A program made the translations under genes and the position numbers. Shown one piece after another: positions 50,367 through 60,572 of a stretch of DNA of 64,000 nucleotides. Source of the DNA: Methylococcales bacterium (GTDB taxonomy: Bacteria > Pseudomonadota > Gammaproteobacteria > Methylococcales > Methylomonadaceae); assembly GCA_026399015.1 (NCBI GenBank), contig JAPLRS010000043.1, forward strand, positions 1 to 64,000. The letters are read 5' to 3'. How positions within the stretch are numbered: position 1 is the stretch's first letter; each line of letters begins with the position of its first letter. The notes under the pieces are model-generated. The model ran no database searches and was not told the origin of the DNA. It saw nothing but the letters and a program-made list of their open reading frames with translations.

Positions 50367-50846
50367 TTATAGTACCAACTCACTTAAACTGGCATGTTCA
50401 TCTGGTCTTGGCCCTAGTGGCCAATGAAACTTTCGTTCTGCTTCAGTAATCGCTAGGTCATTAATGCTTGCGTAACGGCGTTGCATAAGGCCGTTACTAT
50501 CAAACTCCCAATTTTCATTGCCATAAGATCTAAACCATTGGTTATTAGCATTATGCCATTCATAAGCAAATCGAACTGCAATGCGGTCTTCTGTAAAAGC
50601 CCAAAGTTCTTTAATTAAGCGATATTCTAATTCTTTAGCCCATTTTCTTTCTAGAAATTCGATAATTTCAGTGCGACCTTTAATAAATTCATTCCGATTT
50701 CGCCATACACTATCTGGACTATAAGCCAAGGCGATTTTTTGAGGGTCTTGATTGTTCCAAGCATTTTCAGCCATACGTACTTTTTGTATGGCCATGTCGC
50801 GAGTAAATGGTGGGACTGGTGGATGGGCTTCAATAGTGTTGGTCAT
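50367..50846 (-). CDS. NTF2-like / SnoaL-fold protein (DUF1348)
   Basis: 159 residues. [34 protein letters not shown], and the C-terminal [20 protein letters not shown] are diagnostic of DUF1348 proteins. Small cytoplasmic alpha+beta barrel; function unknown. A REP-like repeat begins 38 bases upstream. Confidence 0.9.
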
Positions 50847-51055: not shown

Positions 51056-52600
51056 TTAAGACTGGTTTAGTTGAGCAATTTCATTATGTTCTACTTTGGG
51101 TGGATCTAATAAATGTGATAGCCAAGCTTCTAGAGCTGTTTGATTTATTTTTAACAGTGGAGCGGGAGCAAAGCCCAGTACAATGATTAACAACGCAGGT
51201 ATGCATAATAAACCTATTTCGCGGGGTCTTAAGTCATGTAATTGTGTAACCGGAGGGCGAGTTATCGGTCCTAAAAAGGCTTTGCGAGTAAAAGAGAGCA
51301 TATAAGCAGCACTTAAAACAGCTCCTGCCAGTGCGCTGATTCCTAAACTATGATGTGCGGTTAGGGCTCCAAGAATTATTAATAGTTCCGCAGGGAAACC
51401 ACTGGTGCCCGGTAAGCCAATACTAGCTAACATAAAAATAAAATAAAAGCTGGTCAAAAGCGGTGTTACTTTAGCTAACCCCCCTAAGTGAAGAGTCTCT
51501 GTACTTCCTAAGCGTTGTTGAATAAATCCGGCTATTAACATCAAAGAGCTTGATATTAGGGTAAAGTTAAACAGCTGAAACAATGCGCCTTGGATACCCT
51601 GTAAGGTTAAAGAGGCAATGCCAATTAGTACGAGTCCTACATGGCTAATACTGGCATAAGCTAGTAAACGTCTTAAGTTAGTTTGTTGTAAGGCAATTAA
51701 GCCCGCGTAAATAAGAGTTATTGCACCTAAAATACCTAAGCCCCAGCTATATTCAACAGCTGCTTCTGGAGCTAAAGGTAAGGCAAAGCGTAAGATACCA
51801 TAAAGGCCTAGTTTTAAACCAATCAGTAAAGCTGTTACTTGCGAAGGGCCTTCCATAGTGGTGGTAGGTAACCAAGTATGAAAGGGTACTAAGGGGGCTT
51901 TTGCAGCAAAACCTAATAGCAATAAACTAAAGACAATTAATTGCAAGGGGTCTGCAAGCGGCGTTTCTAAGAGTTTTACTAAATCGAAACACAAGTCTTC
52001 GGGTAGCGTGCTACTTATTGCAGTAGCATGATTCATTGCAAGTAAAATAATGCCAAATAATAATGGTACGCCACCAAATAGCATAAATAGGGTGTATTTC
52101 ATGGCGGCACCACGGCGTTTAGGACCAATACCCCACAAGCCAATCAGAAAGAAAAGGGGGGGTAAAGTAAGCTCCCAAAATAAAAAAAACAACATTGTAT
52201 CTGTGGCAGAAAACACTCCAATCGTAATACCCTCTAAGAATAAGAGTAATGCAAAATGTTGACAGCGTAATTGTTGCACAGAATTCCACGTTGCAATTAT
52301 GGCGCTGAGGCTTAATAGAGCCGTCATAGGTAAAAATAAGATTGAAATCCCATCAATGCCAAGTGCGTAATGAATATTTAAACGCGGGATCCACGCATAA
52401 TGTTCTTCAAGTTGAAAGGTATTGCCATTTGCACTGTTGAACAAGCCTAAGGCGATTAGCGTTAAGATTAATTCAAAAATAGCAGTCCATAGGGCGATTT
52501 TTTTAGAAAGTTTTATATCAGAACTAAGGCTAGTAACGATAGCACCTAAAATCGGCCATAAAATAATAAAACTCAGTACAGGAAATTGTGTAGGGCTCAT
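51056..52600 (-). CDS. NuoM-like proton-channel subunit, DAB-type operon (last gene)
   Basis: 514 residues from ATG 52600, one base after the upstream stop; the frame's first ATG at 52690 would run 30 residues into that gene. About 14 membrane spans. Proton-path residues of NuoM-type subunits are kept: Glu in LFWELTLPPLFFLIG, Lys in AAKAPLVPFHTWLP and Lys in LIGLKLGLYGILR. It ends in a long soluble tail (HLLDPPKVEHNEIAQLNQ). Presumably pumps or channels protons within a membrane complex with DabA. Confidence 0.88.
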   Translation of the reverse strand: MSPTQFPVLSFIILWPILGAIVTSLSSDIKLSKKIALWTAIFELILTLIALGLFNSANGNTFQLEEHYAWIPRLNIHYALGIDGISILFLPMTALLSLSAIIATWNSVQQLRCQHFALLLFLEGITIGVFSATDTMLFFLFWELTLPPLFFLIGLWGIGPKRRGAAMKYTLFMLFGGVPLLFGIILLAMNHATAISSTLPEDLCFDLVKLLETPLADPLQLIVFSLLLLGFAAKAPLVPFHTWLPTTTMEGPSQVTALLIGLKLGLYGILRFALPLAPEAAVEYSWGLGILGAITLIYAGLIALQQTNLRRLLAYASISHVGLVLIGIASLTLQGIQGALFQLFNFTLISSSLMLIAGFIQQRLGSTETLHLGGLAKVTPLLTSFYFIFMLASIGLPGTSGFPAELLIILGALTAHHSLGISALAGAVLSAAYMLSFTRKAFLGPITRPPVTQLHDLRPREIGLLCIPALLIIVLGFAPAPLLKINQTALEAWLSHLLDPPKVEHNEIAQLNQS

Positions 52601-52601
52601 A

Positions 52602-54155
52602 TTAATTAATTTTAGCTGGCGGAATATGTTCGGCTTTTTGTGAGCTGTGTACAGGATAATGTGCACCGATATCGGTAGCTTCTTGGTCAATAAAGTTTAA
52701 CCAAGGTGTGGTGTAAAAGCCGGTAACAATAAGTAGTGCACAGATAATAACGGTGATGATGCGTTCTGCTCTAATAGGATGATGACTACTGCTATAGGGT
52801 TGTTGAACGCGTTTAGGTGTTGCGATAAAAATCTGTTGAAAGGCCCTGAGTAAAAATGCCGCGGCCAGAACATTACCAAGTAGAATAGCAATAGCTAATA
52901 ACCACCCATCTTCTTCAATGACACCTTCTAAGAGTAAATGCGCTGCGTCATAACCCGGGGTGCCCGGCATAACCATGGTGCTTAAAGCAGATATCAAGAA
53001 CAGTATGGCGATGGTGGAGTTAGTGTCAAATAAGCCACCTAATCGAGGGATAAAAGCAGTGCGTGTGCGTTCATAAATTAAACCAACACTAAATAACATG
53101 CCTGCTGTTGCAAGACCGTATGCAATGCAAAGTAATAAGCTACCTTCTAAGCCAAATTCATTAAAGCAAAAAATACCTATCATTAACATGCCGGTATGAC
53201 TTACGACAGAAAAAGCCAGTAAGCGCCTAATATTAATTTGCATTAAAGCCAGCAGAGCGCCGTAAAAGATACTGATTAAACTTAAGATTAAAACAAATTG
53301 TGTCCATTGTTCGGCAACACCAGGTACTAGCGGTAAGATAAATCTTATCACTGCATATAAACCTATTTTTAAACCGACGATAAAAATAGCGCCACTGGCA
53401 ACGGTGCCTTGTTCTGCGAGTAAGGGTAACCAGCCGTGAAAAGGAAATAAAGGCATTCGAATTGAAAAGCCAAAGAATAATAAGATAAAAATTAAGACTT
53501 CATCATGCAGATAAGCGTTGTTCTGTTTTAAGGTTAACCAATCAAAAGTTAGGGCATTTTCAGCATCCATTAACCCAAAGCCTAAGAGTAAAAAAGCCCC
53601 TAGAGTCATGACCAAACCACTGCCCCAATATTGCAGTAACAGCGTGATAATCCACCGTCGATTTTGTCCAGTCCCTGCATGGCGGGTTAGTAAGATAACG
53701 GGTATTAGTTCTGCAAGACTCCAAAGCCAAAATTGCATCAGATTTAAGGCAGAAAAGGCGCCAATTAAAATGCCTTCATAACCTAGTAGGCAGGCGATAA
53801 ATAATCGGTCTGTGATATGACGGGTGATGGTGGTGTAGATTAAAGCAAGTAAAGTTAATATAGCTGTAAGTGGGATAAATAAAATATTGGCGCCATCGAC
53901 ACCTACGGTATAGGTTAGCCAGCCTAGATGCAATCTTTCAACTAATTGAATACTAGTATTACCCGAATTAAAAATACTAAGCAAGTAAACACTCAATAAA
54001 GTAGTGCTTAAGGTGCCGGAAAAACCAAAGCGTAAGGCAGTTGTGCTGGATCGGGATAATAAAATGCCAATCATGCTCGCTAATGGGACGAGTGTTAGTG
54101 TTGTTAGTAATGGAAATACGGCCGTTTCAGACCAATAATTTATAGTTGTATCCAT
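52602..54155 (-). CDS. NuoM/NuoN-like subunit of the DAB-type operon
   Basis: 517 residues from ATG 54155; a TTG at 54173 would overlap the upstream gene by 11 bases. About 14 spans. The family core is recognisable (LLVVSH-type SVVSHTGMLMIGIF, FFGFSIRMPLFPFHGWLP, IVGLKIGLYAVIR). Notably the central Lys of the first half-channel motif (K in VKMPIF/AKAPLV of the paralogues) is Arg here, while the Lys in GLKIG and a Glu in WSLAELIPVIL remain. C-terminus extended (EATDIGAHYPVHSSQKAEHI). Confidence 0.86.
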   Translation of the reverse strand: MDTTINYWSETAVFPLLTTLTLVPLASMIGILLSRSSTTALRFGFSGTLSTTLLSVYLLSIFNSGNTSIQLVERLHLGWLTYTVGVDGANILFIPLTAILTLLALIYTTITRHITDRLFIACLLGYEGILIGAFSALNLMQFWLWSLAELIPVILLTRHAGTGQNRRWIITLLLQYWGSGLVMTLGAFLLLGFGLMDAENALTFDWLTLKQNNAYLHDEVLIFILLFFGFSIRMPLFPFHGWLPLLAEQGTVASGAIFIVGLKIGLYAVIRFILPLVPGVAEQWTQFVLILSLISIFYGALLALMQINIRRLLAFSVVSHTGMLMIGIFCFNEFGLEGSLLLCIAYGLATAGMLFSVGLIYERTRTAFIPRLGGLFDTNSTIAILFLISALSTMVMPGTPGYDAAHLLLEGVIEEDGWLLAIAILLGNVLAAAFLLRAFQQIFIATPKRVQQPYSSSHHPIRAERIITVIICALLIVTGFYTTPWLNFIDQEATDIGAHYPVHSSQKAEHIPPAKIN

Positions 54156-54162
54156 TGGTATC

Positions 54163-55725
54163 TCAAAAGGCAAGCAGTAAGGTGGTTAAGATAAATAAGA
54201 CTAAATAACGAGGTCTTAACACAAACATTTCAAATTGATTAGCAATTCGTCCCAGTTTACGGCCTAAATTTAAAGCGTCTTTACCAATGCCGCGTAATAT
54301 AAAGCGATCTTCAAACCAATGGGTCAAGGTAGCAAATTGACTAGTGATTTGCCCAGCAATACCACTCCCTTTTGCAAAGGGGTTTTCTATGGGTTCTGGG
54401 TGTGCACCAATTAATCTTTCTTCTAATTCGGCTAGTGAAGAAATACTGTTAATTGTGGGCGCAGGAATACCCATGACTTGATCAAGCACATGGTCATCAA
54501 AATAACTTAAATCATGAGCTAGTCGTTTTATAGGTCTTACTAACATCCAATCAGATAATTGATCCAACCAGAAGCGCTGTAAAGAAGCGGTATAGGCCCA
54601 GGGTAGTCTTGCAATGATTGGATTAAATGGTTTAATGGGGTTGTCTCGAACATTGTGCATTAAAGACGGTGCCGTTAAAAACAGATAGGTACGCACAACG
54701 GCATGAGCGCATAGATGCCAGATTGCAAATGTCCAAAAGCCCAAACCACATTCTATAAACATGAGCCCTAGTTGTCCGGATGTTGCGAAAGCTAAAGAGC
54801 TTTTAACATCCGATTGCGTGAGTCCAACTATATAACTATGAAACGCGGTGATAGTGCCTATCAATATTAGGATAGCCATGGCGAAAGGGGCTTTTTCAAA
54901 TACGGGTTCAAGCATGTAAACTAAATAAACCCCAGAACTAATCATAACGGCACCGTAAAACACGGTACTTGAAGGTGTCGGTCCTTCCATTGCCCTTGAT
55001 AACCAGGGGGTAAAAGGGACTTGAGCCGATTTAGCAAATGCCGCTAGGCTAAAACATAGAGCAATTCCTGTGGCTTCGCTAGTGCTAAGATTAACGGCTA
55101 GTGCTTTTAAATCTAGCCAATTTGTACTGTCAGTCCATGCGTAAGTTAAGCTAATTCCTAAGATAAAGCCGACATCCCCCAATCGATTGGTAACAAATAC
55201 GCGGGTTGCGTTAACGGTCGCGACCGGTCTTTGATAGGCATAAATTATTAATAAATAAGAACATAAGCCAGAAATTTCCCAGCCAAAAAAAGTCCCCACT
55301 GTATTGCCTGATAAAATCAGAAATAATATAGCGGCGGCAAATAAACATAAGATGGCAAAGAAACGATGAAAACCGTCTTCTCTGTGCATATAGTTAACAG
55401 AGAAGCGTGAAATAATGCTTAAGATTAAGGCAAATAAGGTAGCTAGATAGACATTAAATCCATGACTAATAAAATTTAGTTCAATGTGTAAGTTGTCACT
55501 AGATAACCATGTGCCTAAGCTTAAGCTACCTGAATTCTTATGAAGTAAATCTGCGATTAGTAAGGAAAATGCGACTAAACAAGACATGCTAATAGACCAG
55601 TTAGCAATTAGAGCGGTAGTGTTCTCACTTGCTTCGCCAGTAAGTTTGCCCGATAAATGTCCGAAACCTATCAAAATGGCTGAAATGAAAGGCAACAAAG
55701 GAATTAAAACAACTAGGCTATCCAT
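54163..55725 (-). CDS. dabB: NuoL-like subunit next to DabA (DabB-type)
   Basis: 520 residues. NuoL-type membrane core: FGWEISGLCSYLLI (Glu), NRLGDVGFILGISL, SLAAFAKSAQVPFTPWLSRA (Lys), MEGPTPSSTVFYGAVMISSG. The usual HAATM segment of NuoL is FYGAV here. A long C-terminal loop (PAPTINSISSLAELEERLIG) and final helix follow. It begins two bases after dabA. DabB proteins are thought to drive bicarbonate or CO2 uptake by DabA with the proton gradient. Symbol given by position and family; orthology to characterised DabB is likely but unproven. Confidence 0.82.
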   Translation of the reverse strand: MDSLVVLIPLLPFISAILIGFGHLSGKLTGEASENTTALIANWSISMSCLVAFSLLIADLLHKNSGSLSLGTWLSSDNLHIELNFISHGFNVYLATLFALILSIISRFSVNYMHREDGFHRFFAILCLFAAAILFLILSGNTVGTFFGWEISGLCSYLLIIYAYQRPVATVNATRVFVTNRLGDVGFILGISLTYAWTDSTNWLDLKALAVNLSTSEATGIALCFSLAAFAKSAQVPFTPWLSRAMEGPTPSSTVFYGAVMISSGVYLVYMLEPVFEKAPFAMAILILIGTITAFHSYIVGLTQSDVKSSLAFATSGQLGLMFIECGLGFWTFAIWHLCAHAVVRTYLFLTAPSLMHNVRDNPIKPFNPIIARLPWAYTASLQRFWLDQLSDWMLVRPIKRLAHDLSYFDDHVLDQVMGIPAPTINSISSLAELEERLIGAHPEPIENPFAKGSGIAGQITSQFATLTHWFEDRFILRGIGKDALNLGRKLGRIANQFEMFVLRPRYLVLFILTTLLLAF

Positions 55726-55727
55726 GC

Positions 55728-58700
55728 TTAAAGTCCTTGTAATTCAGGTTGTTTAATGAGCATTGGTGCGACAGGTAAGGTTTGGTTTTTATAGCAAGCA
55801 GGTGAATTATCTGCCATGGGTATGTTGATAGGCGCTGCTTGCCACGGTACAAACCCTGTGTCTGGTATAAATATAAAAAGTGCATCACTATCAGGATCTT
55901 TTGCTGTTAAATGTAACCAGCCACCACCAATGAGTTCTCTTAAGCTGGCTTGTTCGGTATAAATGCGTTCTAGCACACTTGTTTTGGCTTCAACGATAAG
56001 CTGTAAGCGCATAGCCTCATGTATTTCAACCATTTGTTGAGGAAGTCCGGTACGTAAATCACTGTTGGTACCTTCCATGACACCAAAAAAACCAGTGACA
56101 TTGTGTGGTACTTTAGAGCCACAACCAAAGTGGTCGTTATTAACAGTAGAAAAATAATATTCCAGATTAATTCCTGCCCCTACCGGGCCAACAGCGAGCA
56201 AAATGTTTTCGAGTATTTTGCCATCTACATCTTGCGTAGGGTCATAAGAGATTAAAAATAAGCGTCGATCGAAAAATGCGCCTTGTGTTAAAGATCTTCT
56301 GCCTACCAAAGCGGCAGCATTTGTAGCATGGCCTAATTCTGGTCGCGCTTGTGAGAAATCAACCGCACGCTCTTGAATATGTTTCAATGCTTCTTGAGGT
56401 GTTGGATTTCTGGGTGCAGAAGCTAAGCGTCGGCAACGCTCGTGGGCTGATAGTTGTTGGGCGTGTTTTAGTTGGTGTTGGAGTGTGCGTAATGGCTTGT
56501 CTTGTATATTAGGTAATGTTGCTAAATCGTACCAACTGATTTCTTCATTACATGTGTTGTGTTCGGCGCCAATAAACCAAGTATCACTAGGTATGTTGAT
56601 TCCCTGTTGAATTAATAGTTGACGTACTTCTGGGCGATTTGCCATGGCTGCAAATGCTCGCGCATTAGGGCCTCCATGTCGACCACTGCAAGCCCCACAG
56701 TCATAAGCGGCTAGGTGTGGATTATTTTGGCTAATGGATCCATGTCCCATTAAGACAACTAGTGGAGCAAAAGCATTTGTTAGGCCAATATTCCTTAAAA
56801 ATCCGGCGACACGTGTGGCCTGTTCGTTATTTGTAAAACCTTCTTGGGGGTGTTTTTCTGTCACAGTGCTGGTTTGCTCAAGAGTACTAATTTTAAGTTC
56901 AGTTTTTAACGGTGGGTTTATGATTGCGTTTATCTTTTTTAAGAACTTTTGTTGGTAATCGGGTAGGAGTGATTTTGCTAAAAGGTTTAATAAGGTGATA
57001 GGGGCAATCAGATTAATTAGGGGATTTGATAAGAGTAAATTACGGCGTAAGCTGTGATGTAAAACATACGCAAGAAATTGTTCGCCTTTTCTTACTTTAT
57101 TATGCAACTCAGCGTGTTTAGGATGCTGAGCTAACTCAAAAACATTATGCGCAGGTGTAACAACAACAGGACATAAAGGTGTTAGTTTAGTGTCGTCAAT
57201 ACCTTGGTAATTCATAGCAACGCCAAAAAATCCAGCTGCTCCTAAGGTTTCTATCTTGGGATTTAGTTCTTCTAAGTGTCGACGAATACCTTCTTCCCTA
57301 TCATCCATACAAAATATAATTTGGGCTTCTGGTCGATGAGTGCGTGTTGTCCAGCGCCCACGTTCATGATTAGCTTTTAGGGTTTGAAAGAGACGATCTC
57401 GGTAATTGAATTCATAAGCGATTAGCCAAACTTTATTTCGTTCTGTTAAAGTACATTCATTAAGTACATTTAGCATGCACAATAAGTCATTTGTCGTTAA
57501 AGCATTAACTTGATTGGGAGTAAGTCCTAGGTGTTGGCATAAGCGGAATAACCGCCAGCCACTTTTGTGTACGGTATGGCCATCATTTTGTTCGGCGATA
57601 CGATAGCATTTCCATGTCCAGATGAGTTCAGTTAATTGTTGCCAAGCAGCTCGGTTTTGTCGATCTGGATCTGCTTTTACTGCGAGTGTTTCTGCTAATT
57701 GCGTAAGGTATTCAGGTAAGTCACATTTATATAGTGCGTAACGAACTGTAAATTCGGCAAGATTCTTACGGAAATAAGCGTGTAAAGTTATTGTCGTAGC
57801 TGGAATATTCCACATTTCTCTACAGATATGATTTAGCCATAATCTGTCCAGAGTTAAGCGAATTGCTAAAAAGTCACTAAGCGTCGGTGTGGCAAGCGAT
57901 TTAGTGGTGTATTCGGGGTGATGTTGTCGCCAATTAATCATGCCTGCCCAGCCGGGAAGCTCAAGAGCTAGGCGCTCTAGATAGCCAGCCCATTGCGGTA
58001 TAGGAATTTCAAGTTGACTAAGTTGAAATAGGATGGCGTCAACAGCATCTTCGGGTAGTTCGACTAAAGCTTGTTGCCAGTTTGGTAATTCATGTAAAAA
58101 AGGATTTGCGTCATAATTAAGAGTGATGCGCCATGCTTGGTATAAACCTAAGGGCTTATTATCAGGCGTCTGCCAAGACGCTACGCCTTCATCTAAAATT
58201 GCGGCGCAGATTCTAATCAGTTGTGGTCTTACAGAGTCAAGTATGTCAACGCCGGTTAATCTAAGTACCAAGTCACGCATGGTTAAAGGTTGACCTAGTT
58301 GTAAAAATAGCGCATCCAAGGTGTTTAAATCGTTGGTTTCTTGATCAATGCGTTGTTCATTTGTAGGTGTTAAGGATTGATAATTGGCTAGCCACTCTTC
58401 AGCTTGTTCTAAAGATAAATCAATTAATGCTTCTGGATGTAATGAGGATTTTTGTAAATCCAAACGCTCTAAAATACAGTTCCATAATTGCCTAACGGCA
58501 GGGCCTTCTTGTGCACCATTTTCGAATAATTGTGTTCTACATAAGGATGGAACATCCGATTGAACTGTGTGTAGAACGTCCAGTTCATCAATATACCAGT
58601 TTAATTGGCTCATACTTAATGGGTTAAAGTCAAATATCAGAGCCAGTTTGTAAATGTCTTTTTTAGTGATGGCGCGATTATCCAACTGACAAATAATTTG

Positions 58701-58991
58701 TTCGGTTGATAAGTATGATTGTTGGGCAAAGGCATTGTTTAGGTCAATGTCAGTGATACGACCTTTTTCATAAAAAAAACGACTTTTTTCTTCGGGTAAA
58801 TAAGCATTAATTCCCGTGAGTGCATTAAATTCTGCTAATGCTTGTTCAAATGGTAAATGCTGAAAACCATGCAAGGTATTGTGGTGTACGAAATTAAGTA
58901 TAGGTGCTTGGGCAGGTAAAACAGCATCTAAATTAGCTAATATGGCGTTGATTTGTTCACGCTGATTAGTGAGGAATGATGATGTATGCAT
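55728..58991 (-). CDS. dabA: DUF2309 protein DabA, inorganic-carbon uptake
   Basis: 1087 residues. Large soluble, peripherally membrane-bound, beta-carbonic-anhydrase-like subunit of the DAB (DABs accumulate bicarbonate) system. Likely zinc site: Cys and Asp of QIIFCMDDREEGIRRHL (about residue 560), His of LVVLMGHGSISQNNPHL (about 748) and Cys of YDCGACSGRHGGPNARAF (about 763). N-terminus typical of DUF2309 (VHHNTLHGFQHLPFEQALAE). C-terminus contains GHATNAAALVGRRSLTQGAF and PVGAGINLEYYFSTVNNDHF. Predicted to hydrate CO2 unidirectionally. Between two NuoL/M-type genes. Confidence 0.94.
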   Translation of the reverse strand: MHTSSFLTNQREQINAILANLDAVLPAQAPILNFVHHNTLHGFQHLPFEQALAEFNALTGINAYLPEEKSRFFYEKGRITDIDLNNAFAQQSYLSTEQIICQLDNRAITKKDIYKLALIFDFNPLSMSQLNWYIDELDVLHTVQSDVPSLCRTQLFENGAQEGPAVRQLWNCILERLDLQKSSLHPEALIDLSLEQAEEWLANYQSLTPTNEQRIDQETNDLNTLDALFLQLGQPLTMRDLVLRLTGVDILDSVRPQLIRICAAILDEGVASWQTPDNKPLGLYQAWRITLNYDANPFLHELPNWQQALVELPEDAVDAILFQLSQLEIPIPQWAGYLERLALELPGWAGMINWRQHHPEYTTKSLATPTLSDFLAIRLTLDRLWLNHICREMWNIPATTITLHAYFRKNLAEFTVRYALYKCDLPEYLTQLAETLAVKADPDRQNRAAWQQLTELIWTWKCYRIAEQNDGHTVHKSGWRLFRLCQHLGLTPNQVNALTTNDLLCMLNVLNECTLTERNKVWLIAYEFNYRDRLFQTLKANHERGRWTTRTHRPEAQIIFCMDDREEGIRRHLEELNPKIETLGAAGFFGVAMNYQGIDDTKLTPLCPVVVTPAHNVFELAQHPKHAELHNKVRKGEQFLAYVLHHSLRRNLLLSNPLINLIAPITLLNLLAKSLLPDYQQKFLKKINAIINPPLKTELKISTLEQTSTVTEKHPQEGFTNNEQATRVAGFLRNIGLTNAFAPLVVLMGHGSISQNNPHLAAYDCGACSGRHGGPNARAFAAMANRPEVRQLLIQQGINIPSDTWFIGAEHNTCNEEISWYDLATLPNIQDKPLRTLQHQLKHAQQLSAHERCRRLASAPRNPTPQEALKHIQERAVDFSQARPELGHATNAAALVGRRSLTQGAFFDRRLFLISYDPTQDVDGKILENILLAVGPVGAGINLEYYFSTVNNDHFGCGSKVPHNVTGFFGVMEGTNSDLRTGLPQQMVEIHEAMRLQLIVEAKTSVLERIYTEQASLRELIGGGWLHLTAKDPDSDALFIFIPDTGFVPWQAAPINIPMADNSPACYKNQTLPVAPMLIKQPELQGL

Positions 58992-58998
58992 GGGAGTG

Positions 58999-60471
58999 TT
59001 ATGACAAACGTTGGCTTATTTGATTAATCATGTCGTTAATCGTAGTCGCAGATAGTTCAATCACCGGGTTAGGTATGATACCTAATCCAATTATACTGAT
59101 GATTAAAAAACCAGCGGCGAGTTGTTCTCGTCTATTAAGATCAACAAGTTTGGGGTTATTAGATTTCACAGGACCAATTAAAAGTAAATTGATAGTTCTC
59201 ATAGCGTAGGCAGCACTAATGAGTATAGTAATACTGAAGCCTATCATAAGGGCGCCCGATTGTTGAAAACCACCAATAAAGGCATGCAATTCAGCTATAA
59301 AACCAAAAGTGCCTGGAAGCCCCATTACGGATAATAAGGCAAAAGCTACGAGCAGAGAAAATTTTGGCATGGTATGAATTAGGCCGCTGTAATCTTGAAT
59401 ATTGCGCGTGTGACTGCGCTCATAAAGTAATCCTATTAATAAAAATAGAGCAGCGGATACCAAACCATGTGAACTCATTTGTAAAATAGCTCCTGTTAAG
59501 CCAACTTGATTTAGACTGGCAATACCTAATAAAACAATGCCCATGTGACTGACTGAAGAATAAGCAATCATGGCTTTGAGATCGGTTTGTCGCCATGCTA
59601 ACAGGCCACCATAAATCATACCGAATAGAGCGAGAGAAATGAGCAGTGGCTGGAGTATAAGGGCTGCTTCTGGCAGCATGTTAACGGCCCTTATAAGGCC
59701 ATAAGCCCCCATTTTTAATAGCACGCCTGATAATAGAATACTTATGGGGCTGGGTGCTTCGACATGTGCTAATGGTAGCCAACCATGTAAGGGGAATATT
59801 GGCATTTTGACGCCAAATCCAATTAAGAAACCCAGTAAAACTAAGATTTGTTCATTTCTGGGCATATCTTTGGCAGCTTGATGCATACTAGTCATTAATG
59901 ATCCCGCTTGTTGCAGGTCGTATTGACTAATCGCTAATAGGCTAATCAGCATAAAAATAGAGCCTGCCATGGTGTAAAGTACGAAATTTAAGCTGGCAGT
60001 ATGTCTGCGTTTGCCGCCCCAGCGTCCAATTAAGAAAAATAGGGGAATTAAAGTCAGTTCCCAAGCTATATAAAAAAGTGCCCAGTCCTGTGCTAGAAAT
60101 ACACCTAATAAACCGAACTCTAATAACAATACAGATAAATAATAACCTTTGATATTTTCTGTAAGTGGATAGGATGCAATCAATGCGATGGAGGTGAGCA
60201 AAGTTGCTAATACCAACATAGGCATGGATAGTCCGTCGATGCCTAATGCATAGGCGCTACCTAGATTTGGGTTCAACGGAAAATATTCATTAAATTGTAG
60301 GTCAGACGTGTTTTGTTGGTATAGATGCAAGATCCATCCACTCATTAAAAAGGCCAATGTACTAAAAAGGTTGGCAATGCCACGAATGAGGGCTTTATGT
60401 TGACTGGGGGTAAAAATTAATACTAGTACGCCTAGGGCCGGAGTCCAAAGCAGTAAACTTAGAATACCCAT
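58999..60471 (-). CDS. NuoM-like proton-channel subunit (first gene of DAB-type operon)
   Basis: About 490 residues from ATG 60471 (a GTG three codons upstream at 60480 is possible). Around 14 spans. Glu in YIAWELTLIPLFFLIGRWG, Lys in GVKMPIFPLHGWLPLAHVEA and LLKMGAYGLIRAV, then SSVSHMGIVLLGI: the full set of NuoM proton-path landmarks. It precedes dabA by seven bases and starts the five-gene unit; no other complex I subunit is nearby, so it should not be part of the respiratory NADH dehydrogenase. Confidence 0.9.
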   Translation of the reverse strand: MGILSLLLWTPALGVLVLIFTPSQHKALIRGIANLFSTLAFLMSGWILHLYQQNTSDLQFNEYFPLNPNLGSAYALGIDGLSMPMLVLATLLTSIALIASYPLTENIKGYYLSVLLLEFGLLGVFLAQDWALFYIAWELTLIPLFFLIGRWGGKRRHTASLNFVLYTMAGSIFMLISLLAISQYDLQQAGSLMTSMHQAAKDMPRNEQILVLLGFLIGFGVKMPIFPLHGWLPLAHVEAPSPISILLSGVLLKMGAYGLIRAVNMLPEAALILQPLLISLALFGMIYGGLLAWRQTDLKAMIAYSSVSHMGIVLLGIASLNQVGLTGAILQMSSHGLVSAALFLLIGLLYERSHTRNIQDYSGLIHTMPKFSLLVAFALLSVMGLPGTFGFIAELHAFIGGFQQSGALMIGFSITILISAAYAMRTINLLLIGPVKSNNPKLVDLNRREQLAAGFLIISIIGLGIIPNPVIELSATTINDMINQISQRLS

Positions 60472-60572
60472 GTGATTCACTATTTTAAAGCCTATTGTGT
60501 TGAGTCAATACAGTGTCGTCAATTATACGGTTCGGGCATTAATTGGCAAGTGTGTCGATAAAAACCAAGCAC

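Follow-up and report, generated by a model that had tools for sequence, protein, structure and literature searches.

The window (the whole stretch of DNA analysed, 64,000 nucleotides) comes from a Methylococcales bacterium (GCA_026399015.1, contig JAPLRS010000043.1, positions 1 to 64,000), and the subject of this analysis is a five-gene set on its minus strand in which a DabA gene stands among genes for four membrane proteins. The genes, named here MA, DabA, LB, MC and MD, follow one another head to tail in that order from 60471 down to 51056. Open reading frames (ORFs) were listed at 58999-60480, 55728-58991, 54163-55725, 52602-54173 and 51056-52690, with GTG or TTG as the listed start codon in three of the five. 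First-ATG starts, read from the translations, lie at 60471 for MA, 54155 for MC and 52600 for MD, and the gaps counted from ATG to stop are 7, 2, 7 and 1 bases. An earlier note on this DNA, made from the sequence alone, had described five genes running as one unit with gaps of 1-7 bases, and this was borne out, on one strand and with 60471 as end point.

MA (58999..60471) is the first gene and encodes a NuoM-type antiporter-like subunit (PF00361, 243 bits). DabA (55728..58991) is of the long type, with 1087 amino acids (aa), and matched PF10070 at 841 bits (E 1.4e-252, cut-off 25). LB (54163..55725) is the DabB of the set, a NuoL-like protein with transmembrane helices (TM) 1-11 kept, TM12-14 missing and one C-terminal hydrophobic segment. 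MC (52602..54155) is of the NuoM type, without the TM12 Glu, with Arg for the TM7 Lys and with the TM5 Glu shifted or missing, and MD (51056..52600) is a NuoM-type subunit with the full E/K/K/E set. All four membrane proteins matched PF00361 (145-243 bits). The NCBIfam NuoM cut-off (TIGR01972, 263.8 bits) was exceeded by MA (485), MC (277) and MD (451); for LB the NuoL models scored best, yet below their cut-offs. Judged from sequence, the set is composed of one DabA, one DabB (LB) and three NuoM-like proteins. Neither electron-input genes (NADH or quinone arm) nor a SulP gene were found within it.

The source locus was included in a wider survey of methanotrophs, nitrifiers and other bacteria of the phylum, as the earlier note had proposed. 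Among all loci examined with a long DabA, the order MA-DabA-LB-MC-MD was complete in 95/133 (85 distinct after removal of same-cassette copies), which is far beyond chance, and median gaps over the 95 complete loci were 6, 1, -11 and -8 bases (mechanical starts). The full order was found in Methylobacter, Methylomonas, Nitrosospira, Nitrosomonas, Nitrosovibrio, Candidatus Nitrotoga and an Acidiferrobacterales metagenome-assembled genome (MAG), and with this range of hosts a set unique to the source organism is ruled out. Within the family, some DabA was present in 98 of 151 genomes; 36 long-DabA stretches were hand-picked from the matches, and four stretches fetched alongside them were of other kinds (a nuo region, the second DAB of the source genome and two short-DabA loci). 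A scan across named genomes found at least 559 relatives, from which the best 80 loci were kept. In a class-wide draw of 274 genomes, with at most two candidates scored per genome, the matches listed gave DabA in at least 68 genomes and a piece of at least 900 bits with the long-DabA profile in at least 14, source included. Outside the class, at least 30 genomes of the phylum were listed, and eight stretches of seven genomes plus one more genome were fetched, the stretches being picked by a NuoL-like match ending near position 355. The full order was present in five genomes (L199-L203) and, in two pieces with a contig-end cut, in G463; L208 and L209 are two-gene DABs.

By locus and contig ranges, the 38 incomplete loci comprised 17 that run off a contig end, three unclear ones (L094, L097 and L105, which stop 131-232 bases beyond the last gene) and 18 (15 places, three fetched twice) that are otherwise arranged: L051, L053/L098, L057, L064/L120, L070/L137, L073, L095, L125, L128, L130, L131, L132, L153, L173 and L177. 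The last gene of the set is bordered by other DNA in L095, L125 and L153, and the genomes of these three and of L130 were left out of the search for remaining set genes. In L153 (6540-7465, a Gammaproteobacteria MAG), LB is followed by a different membrane protein and not by MC. In L051 (12932-13769, genome G110), an opposite-strand insertion with ORFs that look transposase-like by eye splits LB into a TM1-11 part and a C-terminal part.

Relationships and key residues of the five proteins

Two trees were built, of 92 and 68 proteins, the second omitting 24 rows (four long-branch rows and five whole sets); labels for NuoL/M/N, MrpA/D and DabB were partly assigned by gene order and best match. 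In the careful tree LB clades with DabB (support 99/92) and not with NuoL, and within the DabB clade it adjoins the two-gene DabB of this family (100/99). MA, MC and MD each form one side of a branch (100/100, 100/100 and 94/88), all inside the NuoM group, with MA joining NuoM at 94/90 and MC as sister of MD at 95/93, and by these trees they are three NuoM-derived clades. Grouping with NuoN, MrpA or MrpD was not seen in the trees for MA, LB, MC or MD. The phylogeny suggested in the earlier note was thereby carried out, and its gene identities were kept for MA, MD and DabA and corrected for MC, which is NuoM-like and not NuoN-like (277 vs 116 bits, and the trees). Its NuoL-like label for LB agrees with the best NCBIfam models, but the trees place LB with DabB. 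A Mrp-type antiporter was ruled out by the trees, and no ORF of at least 90 aa lies between the five genes.

Hydrophobic segments after TM11 were counted in LB and in comparison rows. LB has a single such segment in 87 of 90 sequences and two in the other 3; the numbers are 3-6 for ten DabB rows and 4-6 for six NuoL rows. By this hydropathy count LB is without helices 12-14, unlike the other DabB compared. With phmmer, LB 7-373 aligned to NdhF1 10-379, and LB 374-420 aligned to 569-615 weakly (i-Evalue 79). In NuoL numbering, E144 is kept in 89/90 LB and K229, K305 and H338 in 90/90, and the columns of NuoL K399/D400 are empty in 90/90. These empty columns were dropped as proof of a deletion, being common to two-gene DabB rows.

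For the NuoM-type proteins, positions were read in E. coli NuoM numbering (E144 in TM5, K234 in TM7, K265 in TM8 and E407 in TM12), Glu and Lys positions that are important in complex I. MA carries E144 in 106/107, K234 and K265 in 107/107 each and E407 in 106/107 sequences, and MD carries all four in 84/84. MC has Arg at 234 and Lys at 265 in 87/87 sequences and never Glu at 407 (0/87), and D409 and H412, absent in E. coli NuoM, are invariant at its TM12 site (87/87). Glu was not found at position 144 of MC (0/87); two positions on, Glu stands in 75/87, Gln in 11 and His in one. A first statement that the TM5 glutamate of MC was lost was softened on this account, and by alignment the carboxylate is shifted, not lost, in most sequences. 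By residues, only MA and MD look like complete channels, and the 'four proton-channel subunits' of the earlier note did not stand, MC being altered and LB without TM12-14.

In DabA, residues C561, D563, R565, H750 and C765 align to C351, D353, R355, H524 and C539 of DabA2 (9rd0_A), whose zinc and Asp-Arg residues have been identified (PMC13144422, in part). Across 40 long DabA the two Cys and the His are invariant and the Asp and Arg are kept in at least 90%, and by alignment the active site is intact. In the DabA model (mean predicted local distance difference test score, pLDDT, 78), a long helical hairpin spans 624-675 (624-650/652-675), in a block with pLDDT 60-85. Foldseek with this model gave a weak beta-carbonic-anhydrase match only (CsoSCA, E 0.022), and DabA2 was not among the 50 shown of 116 matches, so the family assignment of DabA rests on sequence.

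In DAB2, protonmotive force drives one-way CO2 hydration over a proton path through DabB and a DabA finger, where glutamate E444 stands in for NuoL K399/D400 (PMC13144422, in part). The E444 column holds N660 in the source long DabA, and within the five-gene subtype it holds Glu in 0/114 and Asp in 48/114 sequences, with no acid anywhere in the hairpin core in 54/114. Glu occupies this column in 11/14 other DabA rows (10/13 distinct, L009 being L077 by coordinates). The two-gene DabA of the source genome (L076) has Gln there; E444Q, made in DAB2, abolishes its activity, as does E444A (PMC13144422, in part).

Fusions, split operons and the rest of the genome

Genes of the set are fused in several genomes. 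In Candidatus Competibacter phosphatis (L128), MA and DabA form a single ORF of 1646 residues, and in the same genome an LB-like part and a full PF00361 match share an 873-residue frame, with an MD-sized gene adjoining. LB and MC form a single ORF of about 1040 residues in L131 and L132, the beginning of the same fusion is present in L130, and in L173 two PF00361 matches share the frame of a single ORF, about 1045 residues long. A model of the L131 fusion (mean pLDDT 74) gave eleven helices up to residue 362, low-confidence helices and then a second set, with no confident helices 12-14 in the LB part; its best PDB matches were NuoM-type chains (TM-score 0.84-0.93 by target length), which we take as matches of the MC half, as the listing gives no ranges.

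MA, LB, MC and MD were all kept in 7/7 searched genomes with a split-looking set, in one of which (G241) LB and MC are the L173 fusion. LB-MC-MD is still one block in G026, G070, G102, G103 and G146, and MA-LB-MC-MD is one block in G247, with DabA on another contig. In G070, one contig stretch carries DabA by itself, with MA and LB-MC-MD located away from it, and G146 holds an additional complete second copy of the set. Loci with MA-DabA only were ruled out as reduced systems in the genomes searched, the remainder lying elsewhere in all of them. The MA-DabA and LB-MC fusions and the co-retention in 7/7 split genomes support the view that the genes belong together as one unit, as the earlier note had supposed.

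The same observations bear on an arrangement in which DabA and LB are an ordinary two-subunit DAB, and MA, MC and MD a separate, co-transcribed proton or cation antiporter, serving for example in pH control. DAB2 functions with one membrane subunit (PMC13144422, in part), and the separate position of DabA in G070 and G247 fits such a division; the fusions, however, cross the proposed border, the split genomes keep all four membrane genes, LB is missing helices of the DabB rows, and none of the four proteins groups with MrpA or MrpD. This account is considered fairly unlikely.

The source assembly (2.70 Mb, 86% complete) contains two DabA genes. The second belongs to an ordinary DabA-DabB pair (L076 8004-12424, G000:C29), which is like the five-gene set in having these two partners and differs from it in a DabA of 845 aa, in a DabB of 628 aa whose TM11 is followed by six hydrophobic segments, and in having no MA, MC or MD beside it. 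A PF00361 search of the assembly returned only MA, LB, MC, MD and the second-locus DabB (in two pieces). A search of the assembly for the NuoH family gave no match at 86% completeness; within the genus, a match was present in 15/35 genomes and absent in 20/35. The latter include nine congeners that carry all four membrane genes and are near-complete (G062, G080, G095, G108, G118, G127, G151, G162 and G172; completeness at least 95%, contamination at most 5%), so the five-gene set exists without complex I, as judged by NuoH only and with no genome-wide search for electron-input subunits. According to a study of Methylobacter genomes, nearly all have NQR, and NUO occurs in most of them but is lacking in many (PMC12810054, in part). 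A gene distantly like NuoH, close to two genes for antiporter-like proteins (about 715 and 487 aa), is present in several congeners, e.g. at L204 (G136:C1:147001-157500), and suggests another membrane redox complex.

Another origin considered for the membrane genes was the displacement or duplication of complex I subunits. MA, MC and MD do exceed the NuoM cut-off and branch beside NuoM, but they form separate clades, the NuoH searches gave no match as described, and genes apparently of the NuoL/M/N type also lie elsewhere in G136 and in the genomes of L148 (Nitrotoga), L113 (Nitrosomonas) and L088 (Nitrosospira). A complex I remnant was rejected on the PF00361 search of the assembly, the NuoH absence and the separate clades, and this origin is regarded as highly improbable. 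The scenario that the earlier note named as damaging to its own proposal, in which the membrane genes would be ordinary Nuo subunits that a nuo operon elsewhere is lacking, fails, and its larger DAB-type unit without NADH or quinone arm agrees with the operon and with the NuoH search of the assembly.

RuBisCO gave no match in any of the 35 genus genomes, which rules out a set serving RuBisCO here, and at least one beta-carbonic-anhydrase match was found in 35/35. The source genome has three such matches, two of them strong, and the set is therefore not the only carbonic anhydrase of the cell. In this organism the set possibly provides other carboxylases with bicarbonate when CO2 is low, or serves to control pH. 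The RuBisCO and carbonic anhydrase counts would fit a use of the same five-part complex for pH balance, or its reverse run (bicarbonate to CO2, with protons exported), where RuBisCO is lacking. Against this, the same set is present in nitrifiers, which are autotrophs. DAB2 is, moreover, described as a one-way CO2 hydrator (PMC13144422, in part), and we regard pH balance or a reverse run as unlikely.

Proposed coupling and known systems

The proposal set out here starts from what was observed, namely the gene set, its conservation, the relationships and residues of its members, the fusions and the co-retention. It is considered probable that the products of the five genes form a single DAB/DAC-type membrane complex, with DabA on LB, in which protonmotive force drives CO2 to bicarbonate and coupling is shared with the NuoM-type subunits; we infer the physical complex, CO2 as substrate, the direction and the proton number. 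DabA would be a zinc beta-carbonic-anhydrase-like subunit sitting on its DabB, LB, and would be driven by protonmotive force to convert CO2 to bicarbonate in one direction only, as a vectorial carbonic anhydrase. Since LB is without the post-TM11 helices and DabA has no conserved finger Glu, the pair seems to be without the periplasmic half-channel of DAB2. The catalytic part being kept, the second half-path of the pair missing or changed and two complete NuoM-type channels present, the simplest inference is that the NuoM-type subunits carry the coupling protons. Proton entry would be supplied by these subunits, with MA and MD as complete channels. For MC, which some genomes have as a fusion with LB, the role of an altered connector is likelier than that of a standard pump, a view held with lower certainty than that on LB. 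As a guess from the fusions, MA would adjoin DabA/LB, MC would adjoin LB, and MD would adjoin MC. Such a unit would consume two or more protons per CO2.

A further-reaching form of this reading is that coupling has moved out of DabB/DabA: the DAB2 half-channel would be gone, and CO2 hydration would be driven at a distance through MA and MD via the altered MC, much like an electron-free complex I arm. This is put forward tentatively. If true, the set would be a multi-proton vectorial carbonic anhydrase that could hold a steeper bicarbonate gradient or operate at low protonmotive force. It has long been asked how complex I links its chemistry to proton channels far away, and one small reaction (CO2 hydration) without electrons and with three NuoM-type subunits would make a minimal system for this question. 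The set would also be a candidate CO2 pump for two groups of importance to the nitrogen and methane cycles, nitrifiers and methanotrophs; its membrane genes match NADH dehydrogenase families and can easily be mistaken for complex I genes.

Several points weigh against the proposed complex and its coupling. The empty K399/D400 columns do not set LB apart from two-gene DabB, although the missing helices do. Asp at the E444 column in 48/114 long DabA means that an acid is not lost everywhere, and the hairpin alignment is uncertain. MC may be less altered than it appears, given the Glu two positions on in 75/87. Co-retention is possible without one complex being formed. Across 89 sets (85 complete, 4 split), the five proteins have distances that correlate at r 0.855 to 0.935; the comparison had no control gene, and these correlations show shared ancestry, not interaction. 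Finally, three beta-carbonic-anhydrase matches and no RuBisCO match leave the need for the set unclear. The complex might instead move or make something other than bicarbonate, acting on another substrate of the DabA fold. No activity report for the five-gene subtype was found in the literature searched, which leaves room for this idea; the conserved zinc site with its Asp-Arg dyad speaks against it, and it is thought improbable.

Among the closest known systems is DAB2/DAC of Halothiobacillus neapolitanus (DabA2-DabB2, 9rd0), which the set resembles in the zinc and Asp-Arg residues, the modelled helical hairpin and a DabB-type partner. The set differs from it in three additional NuoM-type subunits, in a DabA of 1087 aa against 870, in N660 in place of E444 and in an LB without the helices 12-14 that DabB2 has (PMC13144422, in part). 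The set shares with the DAB/DAC family the PF10070 DabA, the Cys2His and Asp-Arg residues and a DabB-type PF00361 partner, and departs from DAB2 in TM12-14 of DabB and in the finger E444; helices TM12-14 are perhaps a DAB2 feature and not one that defines the family, and the finger glutamate, too, is a trait of DAB2. The hydrating protein of cyanobacterial NDH-1MS is different from DabA. The comparison with NDH-1 made in the earlier note held as an analogy of layout and nothing beyond it: in both, a CO2-hydrating part is placed on antiporter-like subunits (PMC13144422, in part), but the five-gene operon has no electron-input gene and no NDH-1 core subunits, and the assembly gave no NuoH match; the CO2-hydrating protein of NDH-1MS was not searched for.

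In 2017, the authors of COGNAT described 'clade C' YbcC/COG3002 operons with genes for a NuoL homologue, NuoM (COG1008) and SulP (COG0659), and remarked that extra membrane genes may mean more translocated ions (PMC5700660, in part). The present set is like these operons in that ybcC (DabA) lies 5' of a nuoL homologue, often with NuoM genes nearby, whereas the passages concerned contain neither the exact five-gene set nor the LB deletion, the residues of MC or the fusions (PMC5700660, in part). The words NuoM and NuoL do not occur in the available text of a 2024 review of genes for dissolved inorganic carbon (PMC10880623). Five-gene operons may already have been shown in earlier DAB literature.

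Neighbouring genes and other observations

A possible promoter 5' of MA (TTGCCA-16-TATAAT, 60522..60549, minus strand) is a consensus match only; the scan gave 27 such sites in the region and 28.3 in shuffles, i.e. no excess. Two further groups of long DabA were noticed in the survey. In L180-L185, L188 and L189, a DabA of another long type (about 1040-1060 aa) is separated by about 0.7 kb from a DabB (about 555-585 aa), and these loci may be of the three-gene DAB1 kind. L178 (G224) and L177 (G247) have divergent long DabA with 36-40% identity, in L178 in the arrangement MA-DabA and then a NuoL/LB-like fragment that the contig end truncates, and may be early relatives of the five-gene kind. 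In the window, a SUF regulator and SUF genes lie upstream of the set in divergent orientation, and downstream are RadC and a DUF1348 (SnoaL-like) protein, whose gene (50367-50846) adjoins the set on the same strand.

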